A stretch of DNA of 22,657 bases, taken from a virus. The position numbers and the translations under genes were made by a program. Of the stretch, positions 663 through 10,066 are shown in pieces. Positions within the stretch are counted from its first letter, which is position 1, and every line of letters begins with the position of its first letter. The notes below the pieces were generated by a model. That model was not told the DNA's origin, searched no databases, and saw nothing but the letters and a program-made list of their open reading frames with translations. The stretch is taken from the IMG/VR virus record IMGVR_UViG_3300043313_000926, positions 1-22,657 of that record, one strand, 5' to 3'.

Positions 663-1174
663 GGCCCCGCCAGCAGCTGGGCGATCCTGTCGCTGTTCGC
701 TTGGATCTCCGCTTCGACGGGATCGACTGGCGTGGCCGTCGAGCCCTCAGGTTTGGCCATGCCGAACTTGGGTTGCCTGAACTCGATCACCTTGAGCTCG
801 ATCGTCCACTCGCCGTCGTCGGTCTGCTCGGGCACGAGCACGTCCTCGATCACGATCGAGCGAATGCCGAGGTCCTCGAGCAGTGGATGCACGCAGTCGA
901 GCGAGCGGGGCCGCTTGCCGATCGGCGGCCGGTCGACCAGCGGCCTGAAGGTGTGCCAGTCGTCCCAGTCCTGCGTCGTGTACAGCCGGAACCTGATCGA
1001 GAAGTGCGAGAGCTTGATGCCGTGGAAGTACACCGTCGCGCCGCTCAGGCCGTAGCCAGTTCGCTCGTCCCACGCGCGCGGCGAGTCGGCGCCCACGATC
1101 TCGCAGATCCCGGGGGTGAGCTGCCCGCCGATTGTGGCCTTGTCGACCGAGTCGTCGAGCGGGTTCCAGGTCAT
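659..1174 (-). CDS. Conserved phage protein downstream of tape measure (171 aa)
   Basis: The start is MTWNPLDDS, whose ATG overlaps the tape-measure stop as ATGA. The protein is a soluble mix of beta and coil with no signal peptide or membrane segment. Notable stretches are ATVYFHGIKLSHFSIRFRLY, IRSIVIEDVLVPEQ and a Pro/Glu-rich tail that ends in a short helix. In contractile phages this slot holds DNA-circularisation or baseplate-hub partner proteins, so a baseplate-proximal structural role is likely. No catalytic motif is seen and I do not recognise the family with certainty. Confidence 0.75.
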   Translation of the reverse strand: MTWNPLDDSVDKATIGGQLTPGICEIVGADSPRAWDERTGYGLSGATVYFHGIKLSHFSIRFRLYTTQDWDDWHTFRPLVDRPPIGKRPRSLDCVHPLLEDLGIRSIVIEDVLVPEQTDDGEWTIELKVIEFRQPKFGMAKPEGSTATPVDPVEAEIQANSDRIAQLLAGP

Positions 1175-3099
1175 GGCGCCCCCGCGATCGGCGCGCCGAG
1201 TTGGATCGCGACGCCTTCGAGGATCGACTCGAGCTCGCGCTTGATGTCGAGGGCGAGCTCGCGCGGCTTGTCGCTCTTGGCGTGCACGTGCAGCTGGTTG
1301 ATCGTGACCGTCCCACCCGCCGCCGACTTTGCCGATCGATGCGGCGTCGTGCGCGGCCCGGCGGCCGTAGACTCGGCCACACGCACGCCGGGCGCCGGCA
1401 CCATCCCGCCAACCGCTCGACGCGCCGCTGGCGTGCCTTGCTCGACGCCTGCCGTCACGCCGGCAGGGATCGCCGCGCCGAGGTTCTGGAACGCCTTCGA
1501 TGGCGAGTGGATGCCCAGCGCGTCCCTGAATGCGGCCGACGCGGCATGGCCGATTCTCGTCACGGCCTCGACGACCCACTGCGCGCCTGACTTCAGGCCG
1601 CCGACGATCCCTTGCCAGATGGACCGGCCGAGACCCGTCCAGTCGATCTCCTTCCACAGCTGATAGAGCAGGCGCGCTGTGTTGATCACCGCCCATATCG
1701 CCGCCGCAGCAAGCAGGAATGGCGCGGCGATCACCAGGCCCTCGAGTGCGAGCGCCCCGGCCGAGGCGACCAGGCGCCACATCGCAGGGACGAGCAAGGC
1801 GACGAGCTTCACGCCCAGGCCGACGGCCGCGACCGCCGCCACCGCGAGCCCGGCACCGAACAGCGCGACGGCGACCTTGCCCGCTGTGAGTGCGGCGGTG
1901 GTGAGGTCGACTCCCTTGCCCGATTCACCGCTGCCGAACGTGCGCCGGAACGCCGCGCGCACTTCCAAGATGCCGATCACGATGTGCTGCCCGCCGAGGA
2001 TCATCCCCTGGAAAAACCGTTTGACGATCGGCAACGCGGCCGTCGCTGCGTCCACAAGTGGCTGCACGAGCGTCGACAGCAGCAGCTTGAGCGCTCGGCC
2101 GCTCGCGGTCGACTGACTGAACAGGTCGTTGACCGACTTCTTTGCCTTGAGGAACGGCTCGAGATTCAGGCCCGTGAACAGCGCCGCAAACGCTTCTTGC
2201 TGCTTCTGTGTCTGCACCGTGAGCGACAGCATTTGCTTCTCGGCGATGCCGCCCAATCGAGCTTTCACGTCGTCGGCAAGCTTGCGCACCGAGCCGCCCG
2301 TCAGCGCAGCACCTGCGGCCCAGTTGGCGAACATGTTCGCCTGCGCTTCACCCTGCACCGACGACTTGATCGCGACGCCCTCGAGCGCGGCCGACAGGTT
2401 GTCCCCGCGTAGGCCCATGCGATAGAGCTGCTCGCTGTAGGCTGCGACCTTGTCGCGGCCGAGGGCACTCGAGGCCGAAACCTTGTCGATCGCCGTCTGC
2501 ATCTGGCCCGCGTTGCCGGCGGCCAAGCCGTACCAGTTGCGGATCTTCGTGAGGCCCTCCAGCCGCAAGAGCTCGCTGCGCGCCGCGTCCGCCTGGGCGA
2601 CGCCGTAGCGCGCGAGGGCGCCCACCGCTGCGATCGTTCCGGCAATGAGCAGCGCCAGCGCGGCGACGATCGCCACAATGCCAGCCGCAATCAATCCGCC
2701 GCCCACCACGGCCGCGAGCGATTGGAAGCGTGCGACAAGCCCGCCGAGTGGGCCGGGCATCGCCGCGGACTGCTTGGCGAGCTCGGCAAGCCTGGCTTGA
2801 AAACCCCTGCTCGAGCCACCCGTCTTGCTGAACGTGCCGCCGAGCGCCAAAAAGCTAGACTGCGCCTGCGCGACGGCGGCCTTCTTGGCGAGGATCTGCT
2901 CCTGGAGTTGCTTGAACTGCTTGACGTTGACGACTGTCCCGCCCTGCAGGTTCCTCATCGCCGCTTGCATCTGCGACAGAGCGCGCTTGTCCGCGTCGAT
3001 CTGGTCGCGGAGCCGCTGGAGCCCCTGCGCCGCGGACGTAGCTGCGCCAGAGGCCTTGTCCTCGAGCTCAATGGCGAAGGTTGCAGTCTGTTCAGCCAC
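1171..3099 (-). CDS. Tail tape measure protein
   Basis: This 642-residue protein sits directly after the frameshifted tail chaperone and before baseplate-region genes, the canonical tape-measure slot. The first 100 residues are heptad-like helix (EDKASGAATSAAQGLQRLRD onward). Two very hydrophobic Ala/Val/Leu blocks follow, at about residues 125-170 and 400-475, typical of tape measures that later insert into membrane. The C-terminus contains GIHSPSKAFQNLG, a motif common in tape-measure C-termini. The start is GTG at 3099, with AGGGG a few bases upstream. At the usual 0.15 nm per residue the tail would be near 95 nm, which is short for a contractile tail. The role is to set tail length and assist DNA ejection. 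Confidence 0.9.
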   Translation of the reverse strand: MAEQTATFAIELEDKASGAATSAAQGLQRLRDQIDADKRALSQMQAAMRNLQGGTVVNVKQFKQLQEQILAKKAAVAQAQSSFLALGGTFSKTGGSSRGFQARLAELAKQSAAMPGPLGGLVARFQSLAAVVGGGLIAAGIVAIVAALALLIAGTIAAVGALARYGVAQADAARSELLRLEGLTKIRNWYGLAAGNAGQMQTAIDKVSASSALGRDKVAAYSEQLYRMGLRGDNLSAALEGVAIKSSVQGEAQANMFANWAAGAALTGGSVRKLADDVKARLGGIAEKQMLSLTVQTQKQQEAFAALFTGLNLEPFLKAKKSVNDLFSQSTASGRALKLLLSTLVQPLVDAATAALPIVKRFFQGMILGGQHIVIGILEVRAAFRRTFGSGESGKGVDLTTAALTAGKVAVALFGAGLAVAAVAAVGLGVKLVALLVPAMWRLVASAGALALEGLVIAAPFLLAAAAIWAVINTARLLYQLWKEIDWTGLGRSIWQGIVGGLKSGAQWVVEAVTRIGHAASAAFRDALGIHSPSKAFQNLGAAIPAGVTAGVEQGTPAARRAVGGMVPAPGVRVAESTAAGPRTTPHRSAKSAAGGTVTINQLHVHAKSDKPRELALDIKRELESILEGVAIQLGAPIAGAP

Positions 3100-3106
3100 G
3101 CTGCCC

Positions 3107-3759
3107 CTATTCCTTCGGTGCTGTGAGGAGCTTGCGGATATTCCGAAGCTCCGCGACCGCCTCGACGAACAACATCGCGCCTACGTACGCGCGAGCATCC
3201 TCTGACTCGAACCCGCTCGCCTTCCTTCCCAATGCTGCAAGCACACACTCAGCGGCTATACCCAGACCTTCGTTGCTACGCGCCGCCGTCCGCAGCTCCG
3301 TTATTTTCCCGAGACTTCCTCCGCACGAACTCCCGCGAGAAACGACACCGCATCAGCGCAGCGCAGCAGCGTCGCGGGCAGCTCGTCCATGATCCGATCG
3401 AACACGGCCGCGGCGGGGTGCACGAGGCAGTGCCGTACCAGCTTGTCGAGGTCGTCGCTCTTGAGCGACCCCTTGTCCTGGAAGCGCTTGAACATGGCGG
3501 GGTGAGCGCGCTTGAGGATGATCGCGCCCATGTCTGTCTTGACCACCGCAATCTTCTTGCCGACAGGCCCATGCTCGAGCTCGGCCGCGTCGATCGCCTG
3601 GTCGTCGAGCAGCGCCTGTTCCTCGTCGGCGAGTTGCTCGTCGGCAGTGCGCTGCAACTCGCGAGCGCGGCGCGCCTCCGCCAGCGCCGCGCGCTTTGTT
3701 CGCAACTCCTCCAGCCGACCCGCCGCGTCGCCGTTCGCCTTGGACACCGCCTCAGTCAT
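3107..3759 (-). CDS. Tail assembly chaperone, long form made by -1 frameshift (G-GT type)
   Basis: The long product is read from 3759 to the slippery run at 3310-3304, then continues in the -1 frame to a TAG at 3109-3107. The first 152 residues are shared with the short form. After ...VSGK the shifted frame adds 65 residues starting ITELRTAARSNEG and ending LRNIRKLLTAPKE. Without the shift, about 200 bases before the tape measure would be the longest non-coding stretch in the tail module, while the -1 frame is fully open there. Lambda G/GT and P2 E/E' use the same arrangement, in which the fusion recruits tail-tube subunits onto the tape measure. Coordinates span both frames; a plain translation stops at 3301. 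Confidence 0.85.
3301..3759 (-). CDS. Tail assembly chaperone, short form
   Basis: This 152-residue zero-frame product starts at ATG 3759, overlapping the tail-tube stop as ATGA. The N-terminal 65 residues are strongly charged helix (EELRTKRAALAEARRARELQ). The second half is a helical domain (AMFKRFQDKGSLKSDDLDKL, then VFDRIMDELPATLL). The final codons TCG GGA AAA TAA contain the slippery heptamer that yields the longer form. Position between tube and tape measure plus the frameshift signal identify the role: cytoplasmic chaperone of tail assembly, normally absent from the mature virion. Confidence 0.85.
   Translation of the reverse strand: MTEAVSKANGDAAGRLEELRTKRAALAEARRARELQRTADEQLADEEQALLDDQAIDAAELEHGPVGKKIAVVKTDMGAIILKRAHPAMFKRFQDKGSLKSDDLDKLVRHCLVHPAAAVFDRIMDELPATLLRCADAVSFLAGVRAEEVSGK
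3304..3310 (-). promoter_or_regulatory. Programmed -1 ribosomal frameshift site (GGGAAAA)
   Basis: On the minus strand the codons TCG GGA AAA TAA give the heptamer G GGA AAA, which fits X XXY YYZ and lies immediately before the stop. A 6-bp stem (GCTGCG at 3296-3291 with CGTAGC at 3280-3275, one G-U pair) begins 7 nt after the heptamer, the usual distance for a stimulatory structure. The -1 frame then stays open for 65 codons. Confidence 0.85.
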
Positions 3760-4244: not shown

Positions 4245-5696
4245 CTACACCGTCTGCACTTGCAGCGCGGGGTTGAAGAAACCGATCGTGAGGTTGATGA
4301 ACTCCGGATAGCCGAGCGGCACCACGCGCGCGTCGCCGTTGAGCGTCTTGGTCGAAAGCAGGTTGTCGGTGCGGCTCAGCGCGAACTGCACGTCGGACGC
4401 CTTCGGTTTGGCCAGCAGCATGTCGGCCATGGCCGTGCGTGCGCCGTTCTCGATCTCGAGCGCCTCGGACTCGAGAATGAACCCAGTCGTCTTGCTCACC
4501 TGGATCGGACGGTTGAGCCGCCGAATGAAAAAGAGCCGCAACGCGATCTCGGCAAGCGACAGCACGCGCCGGTGTGGCAGCAGCTGAAAATCCGAGCCGT
4601 CGGGCGCCAGCATCCGCGGCCGGTTGACGTAGACGCCTTGCAACCCATCCCAGGTGCGCAGTACGGCGAAGCGCGAGTCGTCGAGCCCCGGGTTGATCGA
4701 CTCGTCGTGCTCGTCGGCATTGCCATTGTCGTCGCGAATCGACACGCCGACGAGCGGGCCGAGGTTTGGATCGGCGGTGTTGACTTCCTCGCTGACGCCG
4801 GCCTCGCGCGCGGCTATCGCGAATGCTGCCGGGCGCTTGTACTTGCGGCCGCTGACCGCGCTCGTGATCTTCGCAGCGCCCGCGCACACCATGCCAAACA
4901 GCGTCGACTTCTGCCCGAACACCGTGTCGAGCGCAATCTTGTAACTCGACTCGCTCTCACCCACGGTCGGGACGCGCGCCGACCCGATCCAGGCGTGCGG
5001 CTTGCCGGCCGCCTGCATGCCTGCGATCGCCAACTCGACCGCATCGAACGCGTCGCCGCTAAGCGGCCCGACGATCTCCACGAGCTCCCACGACGCGATC
5101 GAGTTGCCGAGTGCCGTCAGCGCGCTCGTGATCTCGGTCGCATCCCAACACGGTGCGCTCGCCCGCGCCGTGAAGTAGTCGCCCACTTCGAGGGTGTCTG
5201 TGCCCAGCTCGAAGGTCACCCCGCCGACGCCAGGGACGTCGATCGCCGTAGCCGTGCCGAGCGCAGTCACGGGTCCGAACGTGCGGCCGCCGTCAAGACT
5301 CAGCTGGTATGTGATCCCGGCCGTTCCCACCGTGCCACCGGCAATGATCAGCAACACGAAGTCGTAATCGTCGTTTGGCGTCGGCGGGTCCGAAATGGTG
5401 ACGACGCTTGCGCCCGTCGCCGTCGGCGCAACCTCGCTCACCGAACCTGCGACGGTGTTGCCTGTACGGGTAAGGATTACGGGCTTGCCGTACAACTGAA
5501 TGTACAGGCACGCGGCCTCGACCATGGGGCCGGCCCCGAAGTCAGCAACCACATCTTTGACACGGGCGTACGTAGCGGGCGCGTTGACCGGACCCTTGGA
5601 CGACACACCGCACAGCGCGAACAGTCGCCCCGAACTCGGCGGAAGGATGCCTAGCGCGCCATCCTGCTCTACGATCGAAACCGCTGGCTGACTCAT
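4245..5696 (-). CDS. Contractile tail sheath protein (DUF2586/gpL-like)
   Basis: The start is MSQPAVSIVEQ at 5696, preceded by TGAGG at a normal distance; the longer frame upstream lacks such a signal. The 483-residue protein opens with AVSIVEQDGALGILPPSSGR and GVSSKGPVNAPATYARVKDV, the pattern of sheath N-termini (glycine-rich loop, then a statement of an element and its offset). A beta insertion with ITYQLSLDGGRTFGP occupies about residues 140-200. The C-terminal half ends with NLTIGFFNPALQVQTV, compatible with the strand exchange that links sheath subunits. It is the main evidence for a contractile tail. Length is within the usual sheath range. Confidence 0.85.
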   Translation of the reverse strand: MSQPAVSIVEQDGALGILPPSSGRLFALCGVSSKGPVNAPATYARVKDVVADFGAGPMVEAACLYIQLYGKPVILTRTGNTVAGSVSEVAPTATGASVVTISDPPTPNDDYDFVLLIIAGGTVGTAGITYQLSLDGGRTFGPVTALGTATAIDVPGVGGVTFELGTDTLEVGDYFTARASAPCWDATEITSALTALGNSIASWELVEIVGPLSGDAFDAVELAIAGMQAAGKPHAWIGSARVPTVGESESSYKIALDTVFGQKSTLFGMVCAGAAKITSAVSGRKYKRPAAFAIAAREAGVSEEVNTADPNLGPLVGVSIRDDNGNADEHDESINPGLDDSRFAVLRTWDGLQGVYVNRPRMLAPDGSDFQLLPHRRVLSLAEIALRLFFIRRLNRPIQVSKTTGFILESEALEIENGARTAMADMLLAKPKASDVQFALSRTDNLLSTKTLNGDARVVPLGYPEFINLTIGFFNPALQVQTV

Positions 5697-5706
5697 GTGA
5701 ACCTCA

Positions 5707-6258
5707 TCACGGCGCGTCGGCCGGTGAAACTGTTTGCATCTCGATTTGGTCGAGCGATGCGACCGTGAGATCTGCCACCGTATCAACTGGTGCGATCGGC
5801 AACGGCTCGTCGGGGATCATCGACTCGATCGCGCAGACCAGACGCAGCGCGGTGCCGAAGCGGCGCTCGCTCTTGTCGATCACCCAGGCTTCTGAGCGGA
5901 TCTGAAATGTGCGGCGGGCGCTTAGGTACGCCGCGCGGTGCCATGCGTCGCGCAAGAGCCGCGTCGCTTTGTACTGCAACAGCTCGTTCTCGGGGTCACT
6001 CGAGTCGCTCGAGGAGATCACGACCTGAAAGAGCTCGTACAGCGTGCCGATCGACCGCGGGTTGCGGCCTGGGTTGCGAGCAGGACCTTCCTGCCCGGCG
6101 CTGCCCGTGGCATCTCCCGGCACCCAAGCGATGCGAGGCCCAAGCACCTGCTGGGCGGGTGCGCGCCAGCCGAAGAGATTGGCGCAGCTCGTGCCCTCGG
6201 CCGCGAACAGCGCGACCACGTCGCCGTACAGCTTTTCGAGCGCGAGGGTGTCAGCCAC
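5707..6258 (-). CDS. Putative tail terminator/tail completion protein
   Basis: The 183-residue product starts at GTG 6258 with GAGG 7-8 bases upstream, overlapping the previous gene by 8 bp. It opens with a helix (LALEKLYGDVVALFAAEG), then GPRIAWVPGD, and has a central segment YELFQVVISSSDSSDPENEL and later FQIRSEAWVIDKSERRFGTA. An alpha/beta protein of this size between the virion morphogenesis protein and the sheath is normally the tail terminator (Mu gp37- or gpU-like), which caps the tail tube and joins it to the head. The assignment is by position and general fold expectation. Confidence 0.65.
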   Translation of the reverse strand: MADTLALEKLYGDVVALFAAEGTSCANLFGWRAPAQQVLGPRIAWVPGDATGSAGQEGPARNPGRNPRSIGTLYELFQVVISSSDSSDPENELLQYKATRLLRDAWHRAAYLSARRTFQIRSEAWVIDKSERRFGTALRLVCAIESMIPDEPLPIAPVDTVADLTVASLDQIEMQTVSPADAP

Positions 6259-8231: not shown

Positions 8232-8654
8232 TCACAGGCCGGCGTAGGGGAGCAATTCGACCGCGACGCCCTTCGCGCTGTCGACAGCCCAGATGCGACC
8301 CGCAACCGACGCGCCGGTCGACGTGATCGTCACGCTCTGATCGTCTTTGAGGTAGCAGAGCGCGCCGAAGTCCGTCGCGACAATTGAATTCGCGTCGTTC
8401 GCGAACCACTCGACCCACACCTCGCGACTGAGGTTGACGTTGACCAGCTTGTCGGCCGCAGTCGCGTCGACCGTTTCGGCGAACTTGCCGATCGCGACCA
8501 GGTCAGCCCGGGTAGAGGCTGGCACGACCTTGCCGGAGCCAAGATCGATCGCCGCGATCCCGTGCTTCCACGCCTTGCTGCCACTGGCGAGAGTGAACTG
8601 CTTGTAGGTCCAAGCCTCGCGGCTCGACATGCGCTCATGGTTCAACGCGGTCAT
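8232..8654 (-). CDS. Putative head decoration (capsid cement) protein
   Basis: A 140-residue protein whose ATG overlaps the protease/scaffold stop as ATGA. After a short polar N-terminus, residues from about 16 on look like a beta-barrel (YKQFTLASGSKAWKHGIAAI, DLGSGKVVPAS, IGKFAETVDATAADKLVNVN), the profile of DUF2190/gpD-like cement proteins that bind capsid threefold or local threefold sites. Position between scaffold and major capsid genes is the lambda D slot. Name assigned from composition and position. Confidence 0.72.
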   Translation of the reverse strand: MTALNHERMSSREAWTYKQFTLASGSKAWKHGIAAIDLGSGKVVPASTRADLVAIGKFAETVDATAADKLVNVNLSREVWVEWFANDANSIVATDFGALCYLKDDQSVTITSTGASVAGRIWAVDSAKGVAVELLPYAGL

Positions 8655-9298
8655 TTCGCACCTGCTGCAGGGGCACCCTGCGCCACGGGGACTTCGGTAA
8701 CTCCGAACTTCAATGCGTTGCCTTCACGGCGACACGCGAGGACGGTGGTCGTGAGGCCCATCGCGCGATCCATCTCGCTCGCGGCGGCGATGGGCTGAGC
8801 CTCCGGCCCGCCCTGCCCCTCGCCGCGCGTTGCCGCGACGGCCACGGTGGCGGCCGGCTTGGCGACGGGCGCCTTGGGCAACTCCTTGACGAACTTGCGG
8901 ACGGCCGCGATGTCCGTGGTCTTGAGCACGGCGAGAAACTCCGGCGAGAAGTCGGGCCGGCTCGCCAGGAGGGTTGCCCGCTCGGCCTTGAGCTTCTCTT
9001 GGGCGCTCGCGGCTTTGAGCTTGTGCACCTCCGCCAAGGCCTCGAGCGCGATGTCGTGCGCGCTGGCCGCTGCTTTGCCGGGCAGGCTTGCTGCCGCCGC
9101 GGCCTTTTTCTCGTCATCGTCGGCGCCCTCGGCCGATTCGTCGTCCTTCTTCTTCGGCGGTTCGCCGTCGGGCTCAGACTCGGCGTCGGGTTTGGGTTCG
9201 TCCATCGCCGCGAGTGCTCGCTTCGCGGCCTCGGCGTTGGCGTCATCGCCTTTAGCCGCCTCCTCGAGCGCGGCCTTGGCCTTGTCGTAGGCACTCAT
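8651..9298 (-). CDS. Capsid scaffold protein, nested in-frame start inside the protease gene
   Basis: The codon for Met257 of the protease (ATG 9298) is preceded by GGAGGG at 9310-9305, 6 nt away, the strongest ribosome binding site in the head module. Starting there gives a 215-residue charged helical protein (MSAYDKAKAALEEAAKGDD) that has the scaffold domain and no protease residues. The same nesting is established for lambda C/Nu3 and for Mu I/Z. The location exactly at the domain boundary argues against chance. Confidence 0.8.
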   Translation of the reverse strand: MSAYDKAKAALEEAAKGDDANAEAAKRALAAMDEPKPDAESEPDGEPPKKKDDESAEGADDDEKKAAAAASLPGKAAASAHDIALEALAEVHKLKAASAQEKLKAERATLLASRPDFSPEFLAVLKTTDIAAVRKFVKELPKAPVAKPAATVAVAATRGEGQGGPEAQPIAAASEMDRAMGLTTTVLACRREGNALKFGVTEVPVAQGAPAAGAK

Positions 9299-10066
9299 AA
9301 CTGTCCCTCCGCTCGCGATCGCCGCGAGCATTGCGTCAAACGAAATCAACTCATCCACCAGGCCCGCGCCCTTCGCGGCGTCCCCGTGAAACACTGCGGC
9401 CTGCAGACTCGCGATCGATGCTGCGGGCTTGCCGCGCAGCTCGGCAACGAGCTCGAAGAACGCGTTCGCCATCGAGTCGACGATCTCTTGCGTTGCCTTG
9501 AGCTCCGCATCGCTCAGCGGCTGATCGGGGTCCCCGTCAACCTTGCGCGCGCCGCTCGCTACCAGCGCGACCCGGACGCCCAGCGCGGCGTTCATGGCCG
9601 AGACGTCCGTGCGGGCGCTGACAATTCCGACGCTGCCGACGATACCCGTGTCGCTGATGCAGACTGTGCCCGCGGCCGCGGCGAGCGCGTAGCCCGCGCT
9701 GCAAGCCTTCCCGTCGACGTGCGCCCAGAGCGGCTTGCCCGCGGCCGCGCACATCGCGCGGATAGCACGAGCTGTGTCGAAGCAGCCCGCACAGTCGCCG
9801 CCGGGGGAGTCGATGCGCAATACGATCGCCGCGGCCGCGCTCACGCATGCGGCCTGCACGCGCGTACGGATCGCTTCGTAGGAGTCGAAGAACCCATCGT
9901 CGTGCTGCGTCAGGGGGCCGCAGACGTCGACGATCACAACGTTGTCCCGTTCCTCGTTCTCGCGAGATTCGGGGATCATGAACAGCTCGAGAAACGCCTG
10001 CGGGTGGACAGCGAGGATGCCGGCGCGTTTGTACGCTTGCGGGGCGACGTTGCTGCGGCGCTTCAC
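8651..10066 (-). CDS. Head maturation protease, S49 (SppA-like) with C-terminal scaffold
   Basis: This 471-residue protein starts at GTG 10066 in a GTGA overlap with the portal stop. The N-terminal 245 residues carry S49 motifs: IVLRIDSPGGDCAG near 81-94, the nucleophile in GKACSAGY (Ser123), and SGARKVDGD with Lys175 in the position of the catalytic lysine. The rest (about 256-471) is helical, charged and Ala/Lys/Glu-rich, as scaffolds are, then a Pro/Ala tail. It should cleave the scaffold and itself during prohead maturation. An in-frame second start (next entry) gives the scaffold alone, as in lambda C/Nu3. Confidence 0.88.
   Translation of the reverse strand: MKRRSNVAPQAYKRAGILAVHPQAFLELFMIPESRENEERDNVVIVDVCGPLTQHDDGFFDSYEAIRTRVQAACVSAAAAIVLRIDSPGGDCAGCFDTARAIRAMCAAAGKPLWAHVDGKACSAGYALAAAAGTVCISDTGIVGSVGIVSARTDVSAMNAALGVRVALVASGARKVDGDPDQPLSDAELKATQEIVDSMANAFFELVAELRGKPAASIASLQAAVFHGDAAKGAGLVDELISFDAMLAAIASGGTVMSAYDKAKAALEEAAKGDDANAEAAKRALAAMDEPKPDAESEPDGEPPKKKDDESAEGADDDEKKAAAAASLPGKAAASAHDIALEALAEVHKLKAASAQEKLKAERATLLASRPDFSPEFLAVLKTTDIAAVRKFVKELPKAPVAKPAATVAVAATRGEGQGGPEAQPIAAASEMDRAMGLTTTVLACRREGNALKFGVTEVPVAQGAPAAGAK
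9305..9310 (-). promoter_or_regulatory. Internal ribosome binding site for the nested scaffold
   Basis: GGAGGG on the minus strand, 6 nt upstream of ATG 9298. It lies inside the protease frame, in the linker between protease domain and scaffold domain, and decides the scaffold start. Confidence 0.78.

Follow-up and report, generated by a model that had tools for sequence, protein, structure and literature searches.

The mechanism of the phage lambda G/GT tail assembly chaperone frameshift has been published (PMC5009743, excerpts). In lambda, as at the locus described here, the site lies between the genes for the major tail protein and the tape measure protein (PMC5009743, excerpts), and the ribosome shifts by −1 near the end of the first open reading frame (ORF); the extension is, and at the present locus appears to be, reached only through that first ORF. 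The E. coli dnaX −1 frameshift shares with the present locus an upstream Shine-Dalgarno (SD)-like element, an A-rich slippery site, and a downstream stem (PMC5009743, excerpts).

We analyzed an overlapping pair of ORFs, G and T, in the window, which is an entire 22.7-kb IMG/VR virus record. Comparison with related sequences makes it highly likely that ribosomes undergo a programmed −1 frameshift of the lambda G/GT type on this pair; the phage, Mu-like and contractile-tailed, very probably makes the longer fusion protein. ORFs and profile matches give the minus-strand order sheath, tube, G, T, and tape measure, with the G-T pair sitting between the tail tube and tape measure genes (Table 1). 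The better-scoring match of the tube ORF, to phrog_9206 (E 2e-7; its name is major head protein), speaks for a different identity. Mu-like head genes are also found on the minus strand (Portal_Mu, Mu-like gpT, and an S49-type protease). The protein encoded at 8651–10066 (minus strand) has 471 residues, with an S49 peptidase domain at residues 108–251 and a long charged remainder, which presumably resembles the Mu-type protease-scaffold arrangement.

Table 1. Positions of the G-T cassette, its candidate signals, and the flanking tail genes in the window.
Feature	Position	Strand	Basis or remark
Tape measure protein, 642 aa, GTG start at base 3099	1171..3099	−	PHROG tape-measure matches
−1 frame extension T, GK + 65 residues, TAG stop at 3109–3107	3107..3310	−	
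Closing stem of the family, 3' arm TTGCAGC	3234..3240	−	7 bp with 2 G-U; weak in the window
Local 6-bp stem, 3' arm CGTAGC	3275..3280	−	Mutually exclusive with the longer stem
Closing stem of the family, 5' arm GCTGCGG	3290..3296	−	3296–3291 doubles as 5' arm of the local stem
G, tail assembly chaperone-like, 152 aa, TAA stop at 3303–3301	3301..3759	−	Homologues by iterated HMM search
Slippery heptamer G GGA AAA	3304..3310	−	X_XXY_YYZ phase; adjoins the stop
SD-like GGAGG, 7 nt upstream of the heptamer	3318..3322	−	Duplex of −9.5 kcal/mol with the anti-SD
Tail tube protein, 159 aa	3756..4235	−	Position after the sheath; phrog_4579 tail protein, E 2e-5
Contractile tail sheath ORF (DUF2586)	4245..5786	−	Bait for fetching relatives

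The 3' end of the G ORF reads ...TCG GGA AAA TAA. The original prediction of a GGGAAAA heptamer followed by a stop codon is borne out, as the heptamer (3310–3304) is in phase and stands directly before TAA. The prediction had also described 65 codons in the −1 frame ending 8 bases before the tape measure start; the length is as described, and the spacer between the T stop and the GTG start is 7 bases rather than 8. The T-specific residues span 3304–3110 (minus strand), and the −1 frame peptide includes SNEGLGIAAECVL. The SD-like GGAGG, an element under selection in the family, had been overlooked.

In the mechanism we propose, most ribosomes would halt at TAA and release G (152 aa). A minority would move back by one nucleotide, either on G GGA AAA or, with the stop codon in the A site, on its A_AAA core, aided by the upstream GGAGG and probably also by mRNA structure downstream. 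The slipped ribosomes would produce a G-T fusion of 217 aa, where we infer both the occurrence and the rate of the shift. By analogy with lambda, G would coat the tape measure and the rarer G-T would recruit tube subunits.

G is called a chaperone on the strength of gene order, the frameshift, and a weak match in fold. Neither G nor T of the window matched a chaperone family in Pfam or PHROGs, and G matched no family at all in these collections. Family searches with 52 members gave phrog_5128 in 20, phrog_20303 (minor tail protein) in 5, DUF6848 in 8, and the NCBIfam LIC_10177 family in 33. AlphaFold models G as a long N-terminal helix with a compact C-terminal domain (pLDDT 95) and T as three helices (pLDDT 94). 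The best solved matches to G among those listed by VIA are 3fgx (uncharacterised; Z 10.3) and 3klu (YqbN; Z 5.4); 6u4y (EZH2-EED) reaches Z 4.8 through the long helix, and the HK97 tail assembly chaperone 2ob9 matches weakly (Z 4.8 over 76 residues, 3.8 Å). Foldseek likewise places 3fgx (E 0.019) before 2ob9, a weak match at ranks 2–3 (E 0.24–0.33). Tail assembly chaperone is the name borne by 3 of the 50 weak viral matches listed for G.

The T frame in relatives

Searches with G as the query recovered no relative from IMG/VR nor from 50,697 phage records, and relatives were therefore fetched through the sheath protein, of which the portion at 4248–5699 aligned to them. This gave 98 sources, comprising the window, 93 IMG/VR loci, one MAG contig, and three phage records; L003–L007, identical contigs returned as other loci, were left out. 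Iterated profiles (HMMs) of G and T, applied to the DNA downstream of the sheath, located G in 86/98 sources and T in 85/98 (window counted). The 12 sources without G have only 1–599 nt past the sheath, and L063 stops inside G.

Both genes are reached in 85 sources, and 83 of these place T at −1 with respect to the G frame. Once 14 exact duplicates had been set aside, 69 distinct cassettes remained (window counted). Each of them keeps the −1 frame free of stops for 57–74 codons beyond the end of G; the corresponding stretch in the +1 frame is 1–242 codons (median 24). In all 15 close pairs the T frame has a dN/dS of 0.04–0.30, indicating purifying selection, and the other two frames give 0.86 or more or an undefined value. 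Substitutions summed over these pairs, which are not independent, number 136/61/314 at T codon positions 1/2/3. The first ATG, GTG, or TTG in the T frame is scattered from codon 5 to codon 48 and is absent in 6/69 cassettes. The conserved frame, the purifying selection, and the scattered or missing starts together establish T as a real coding frame, one that would most simply be read only through G. Conservation of the −1 frame in relatives had been named beforehand as a test of the original prediction, and the outcome (83/85 sources) upholds it; its central claim, a −1 frameshift joining a chaperone-like G to an extension, is supported by the conserved frame, the peptide homology, and the purifying selection.

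Meiothermus phage MMP17 has its T homologue (L010:8170–8367) at +1 with respect to G, and the same holds for Thermus phage Riverbug (L011), where the match is weak (E 0.0026). The G frame of MMP17 reads GAT TTT CGG and the T frame ATT TTC GGC, a sequence on which a +1 slip from TTT to TTC is possible. Since the other members are −1, relatives within one sheath clade seem to shift in opposite directions. The annotation of Myxococcus phage Mx4 gives the T region (L009:8266–8454) a hypothetical CDS of its own, Mx4_p58, and lists no fusion; the word frameshift is absent from the main text of the Mx4 genome paper. The sole relative found among one-per-species genomes is L091 (JACDGR010000002.1, an Actinomycetota MAG), possibly a prophage or a binned phage contig.

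Probable slip site and flanking elements

The 69 cassettes carry GGGAAAA (38), AAAAAAA (8), GGAAAAA (6), NGCAAAA (9), NTCAAAA (2), CGAAAAA (2), GGGAAAG (2), CGGAAAA (1), or GGGGAAA (1). X_XXY_YYZ is satisfied in 48/69, and the other 21 keep only part of the heptamer. An A_AAR stands at or near the G stop in 68/69 (A_AAA in 66, A_AAG in 2), the sole exception being L078 with G_AAA. The AAR codon adjoins a TAR stop in 55 cassettes, is separated from it by one sense codon in 13, and by two in Mx4. On a tree of G plus T, the NGC and NTC types account for at least 8 changes of state. The nearest relative of the window, L012, has AGCAAAA and thus lacks the full X_XXY_YYZ, and L050 and L071, with T sequences 98% identical, nevertheless carry GGGAAAA and GTCAAAA, respectively. 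We read these patterns as pointing to a slip-site core made of the lysine codon and the A before it, with the first triplet acting as an enhancer.

A variant of the proposed mechanism dispenses with tandem slippage: tRNA-Lys alone would re-pair on A_AAA with the stop codon in the A site. We give this variant a substantial chance, short of even. The near-constant A_AAR alongside 21 incomplete heptamers, and the repeated gain or loss of NGCAAAA and NTCAAAA, including in the nearest relative, argue for it, as does the recognition of Z_ZZN tetramers as −1 motifs (PMC4066793, excerpts). Against it, A_AAA was the weakest among the tetramers active in E. coli (same excerpts), and GGGAAAA remains the commonest motif. 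Non-canonical heptamers are more frequent in stop-adjacent cassettes (20/55) than in the others (1/14; Fisher p 0.049), but this link between motif type and stop adjacency is not supported when only independent branches are compared (p 1, 3 informative pairs), which also counts against the variant.

The G stop is TAG in 52 and TAA in 16 of 68 cassettes (the window and 67 relatives) and TGA in none. Elsewhere TGA is frequent, ending 47/68 T frames, 43/55 tube genes, and 53/59 tape measure genes. The lack of TGA is partly due to the Ile that follows Lys in the T peptide; a need to keep AUG out of the T frame would also be consistent with it.

For tests of the flanking elements, Mx4 and 10 near-duplicates were dropped from the 69, leaving 58 loci. 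Pairing with the 16S anti-SD upstream of the heptamer exceeds that of codon shuffles that keep the protein and the codon use (z −3.6), with a peak 3–4 nt before the heptamer. At 39/58 loci the pairing reaches −6 kcal/mol or better, and the SD core mostly lies 4–8 nt from the heptamer. An internal SD upstream of the site is thus present, as in SD-stimulated −1 frameshifting of the dnaX and IS type; its distance (7 nt in the window, a peak at a few nt in the family) is shorter than the 9–14 nt given for −1 stimulators (PMC5009743, excerpts). SD-like sequences are depleted 18–25 nt upstream of the heptamer relative to codon shuffles (z +1.8 to +4.1, 58 loci), as if competing SD sites had been removed. 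A stimulatory SD with competitor-free sequence ahead of it is described in the same excerpts.

Downstream, an arm about 6–13 nt past the heptamer (codons E-L-R) pairs in the family with an arm about 50 nt farther on (codons L-A-A-L). A helix of at least 8 bp occurs at this place in 33/58 loci, against 10.4 in codon shuffles (maximum 18 in 100 rounds). In the alignment 75.9% of the cells in this closing stem pair, and the covariation score is 0.221 compared with 0.168 ± 0.012 after shuffling, with 0/500 shuffles reaching 0.221; when the arms are slid along the alignment, covariation is at most 0.116. Locus L077 is omitted from alignment A3 (57/58), and 6/58 loci are omitted from alignments A4 and A5, their G match not beginning at the profile start. 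RNAalifold found no consensus structure in the 57-sequence alignment, and the case for the stem rests on counts of the named structure and on codon-shuffle tests. The folding z in 75-nt windows is −1.35 at the site and −0.04 to −0.83 inside G; as codon shuffles have a negative background, only the excess counts.

The short stem that the original prediction placed 7 nt downstream of the heptamer is present in the window (GCUGCG/CGUAGC, 6 bp with a 10-nt loop) and shares its 5' arm with the longer covarying stem. As a stimulator common to the family it was rejected (16/58 loci against 10.3 ± 2.7 expected), although it may still serve the window. L012 breaks one pair of the closing stem yet keeps the local 6-bp stem. 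No Rfam match at the site reached its gathering score. An Rfam ar14 sRNA match on the plus strand at 3600–3699, antisense to G (26.4 bits, below the gathering score of 58.8), is probably due to chance.

A fuller scheme can be drawn from these elements, and we offer it as speculative. In this clade, peptidyl-tRNA-Lys alone would slip by −1 on A_AAA while UAR waits in the A site; the SD 4–8 nt upstream would pull it back, a closing stem that spans about 60 nt would hold it, the first triplet could be dispensed with, and TGA would be excluded for the T-frame AUG that it would create.

Alternative sources of the T frame

T could instead be a separate gene with its own start, for example ATA by the G stop, translated by termination-reinitiation with the help of the upstream GGAGG. 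An SD-like sequence does stand just ahead of the end of G, such elements can serve translational coupling (PMC5009743, excerpts), and the homologous region of Mx4 is annotated as a CDS of its own. The T frame itself has no conserved start codon across the 69 cassettes. The T-frame codon after AAA is ATA where the stop touches AAA; in cassettes with a sense codon in between it is usually ATC, with ACC, AGT, and AAG as further forms. TGA, the only stop that would create an AUG there, ends none of the 68 G genes. We consider reinitiation very unlikely.

The frame could also change during transcription, by slippage of the polymerase on the A run. The 8 cassettes with A7 would suit such a change, but the other 61/69 have runs of just 3–5 A (4 in the window), which seem short for known transcriptional slippage, and we regard this reading as highly improbable.

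The window by itself, without its relatives, is suggestive but gives no decisive case for a frameshift. GGGAAAA occurs once, against 0.95 expected, and the downstream RNA folds no better than shuffled sequence (z +0.1 to +1.0) or than codon shuffles (z −0.86, −0.21, and +0.42 for 40, 55, and 75 nt). A chance open frame, a pseudogene, or a sequencing error splitting one gene is a negligible prospect even though simulations yield 64 open codons in 7% of runs at local composition and in 33% at the composition of the whole window, as may happen in GC-rich DNA: the cassette is not a chance product because it is conserved in relatives, with the identical relative frame and a homologous peptide under purifying selection in 69 distinct cassettes.

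Comparison with described systems

The kind of frameshift proposed here is already known; the novelty lies in the clade of cassettes described here and in how its signal varies in nature. No description of this clade's cassette was found in literature titles and abstract openings. With these cassettes, Mu-like contractile phages gain a well-conserved group of chaperone frameshifts, which is of use to annotators since T lacks a start of its own. Natural variants at one site also provide test cases for the parts needed in a bacterial frameshift signal, offering a lost first triplet, a constant A_AAR with a UAR stop, a short-spaced SD, and a covarying stem. Part of the system is testable in Mx4, a cultivable relative.

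The cassette has the hallmarks of a lambda-type G/GT pair, namely two overlapping ORFs, an in-phase X_XXY_YYZ, and a second ORF that is startless, under selection, and fixed in frame. It differs from lambda in its GGGAAAA with the stop directly after, in the SD-like element and longer covarying stem of its family, and in that the window proteins have no detectable sequence similarity to named chaperone families. Relative to dnaX, the SD lies mostly 4–8 nt from the site rather than at the reported 9–14 nt (PMC5009743, excerpts), and the gene and the outcome differ. The window resembles phage Mu in its head genes (Portal_Mu, Mu-like gpT) and in having tail assembly genes that overlap, but the Mu tail genes are reported to use a −2 frameshift (PMC5009743 and PMC4378225, excerpts), in contrast to the −1 shift proposed for the family of the window.
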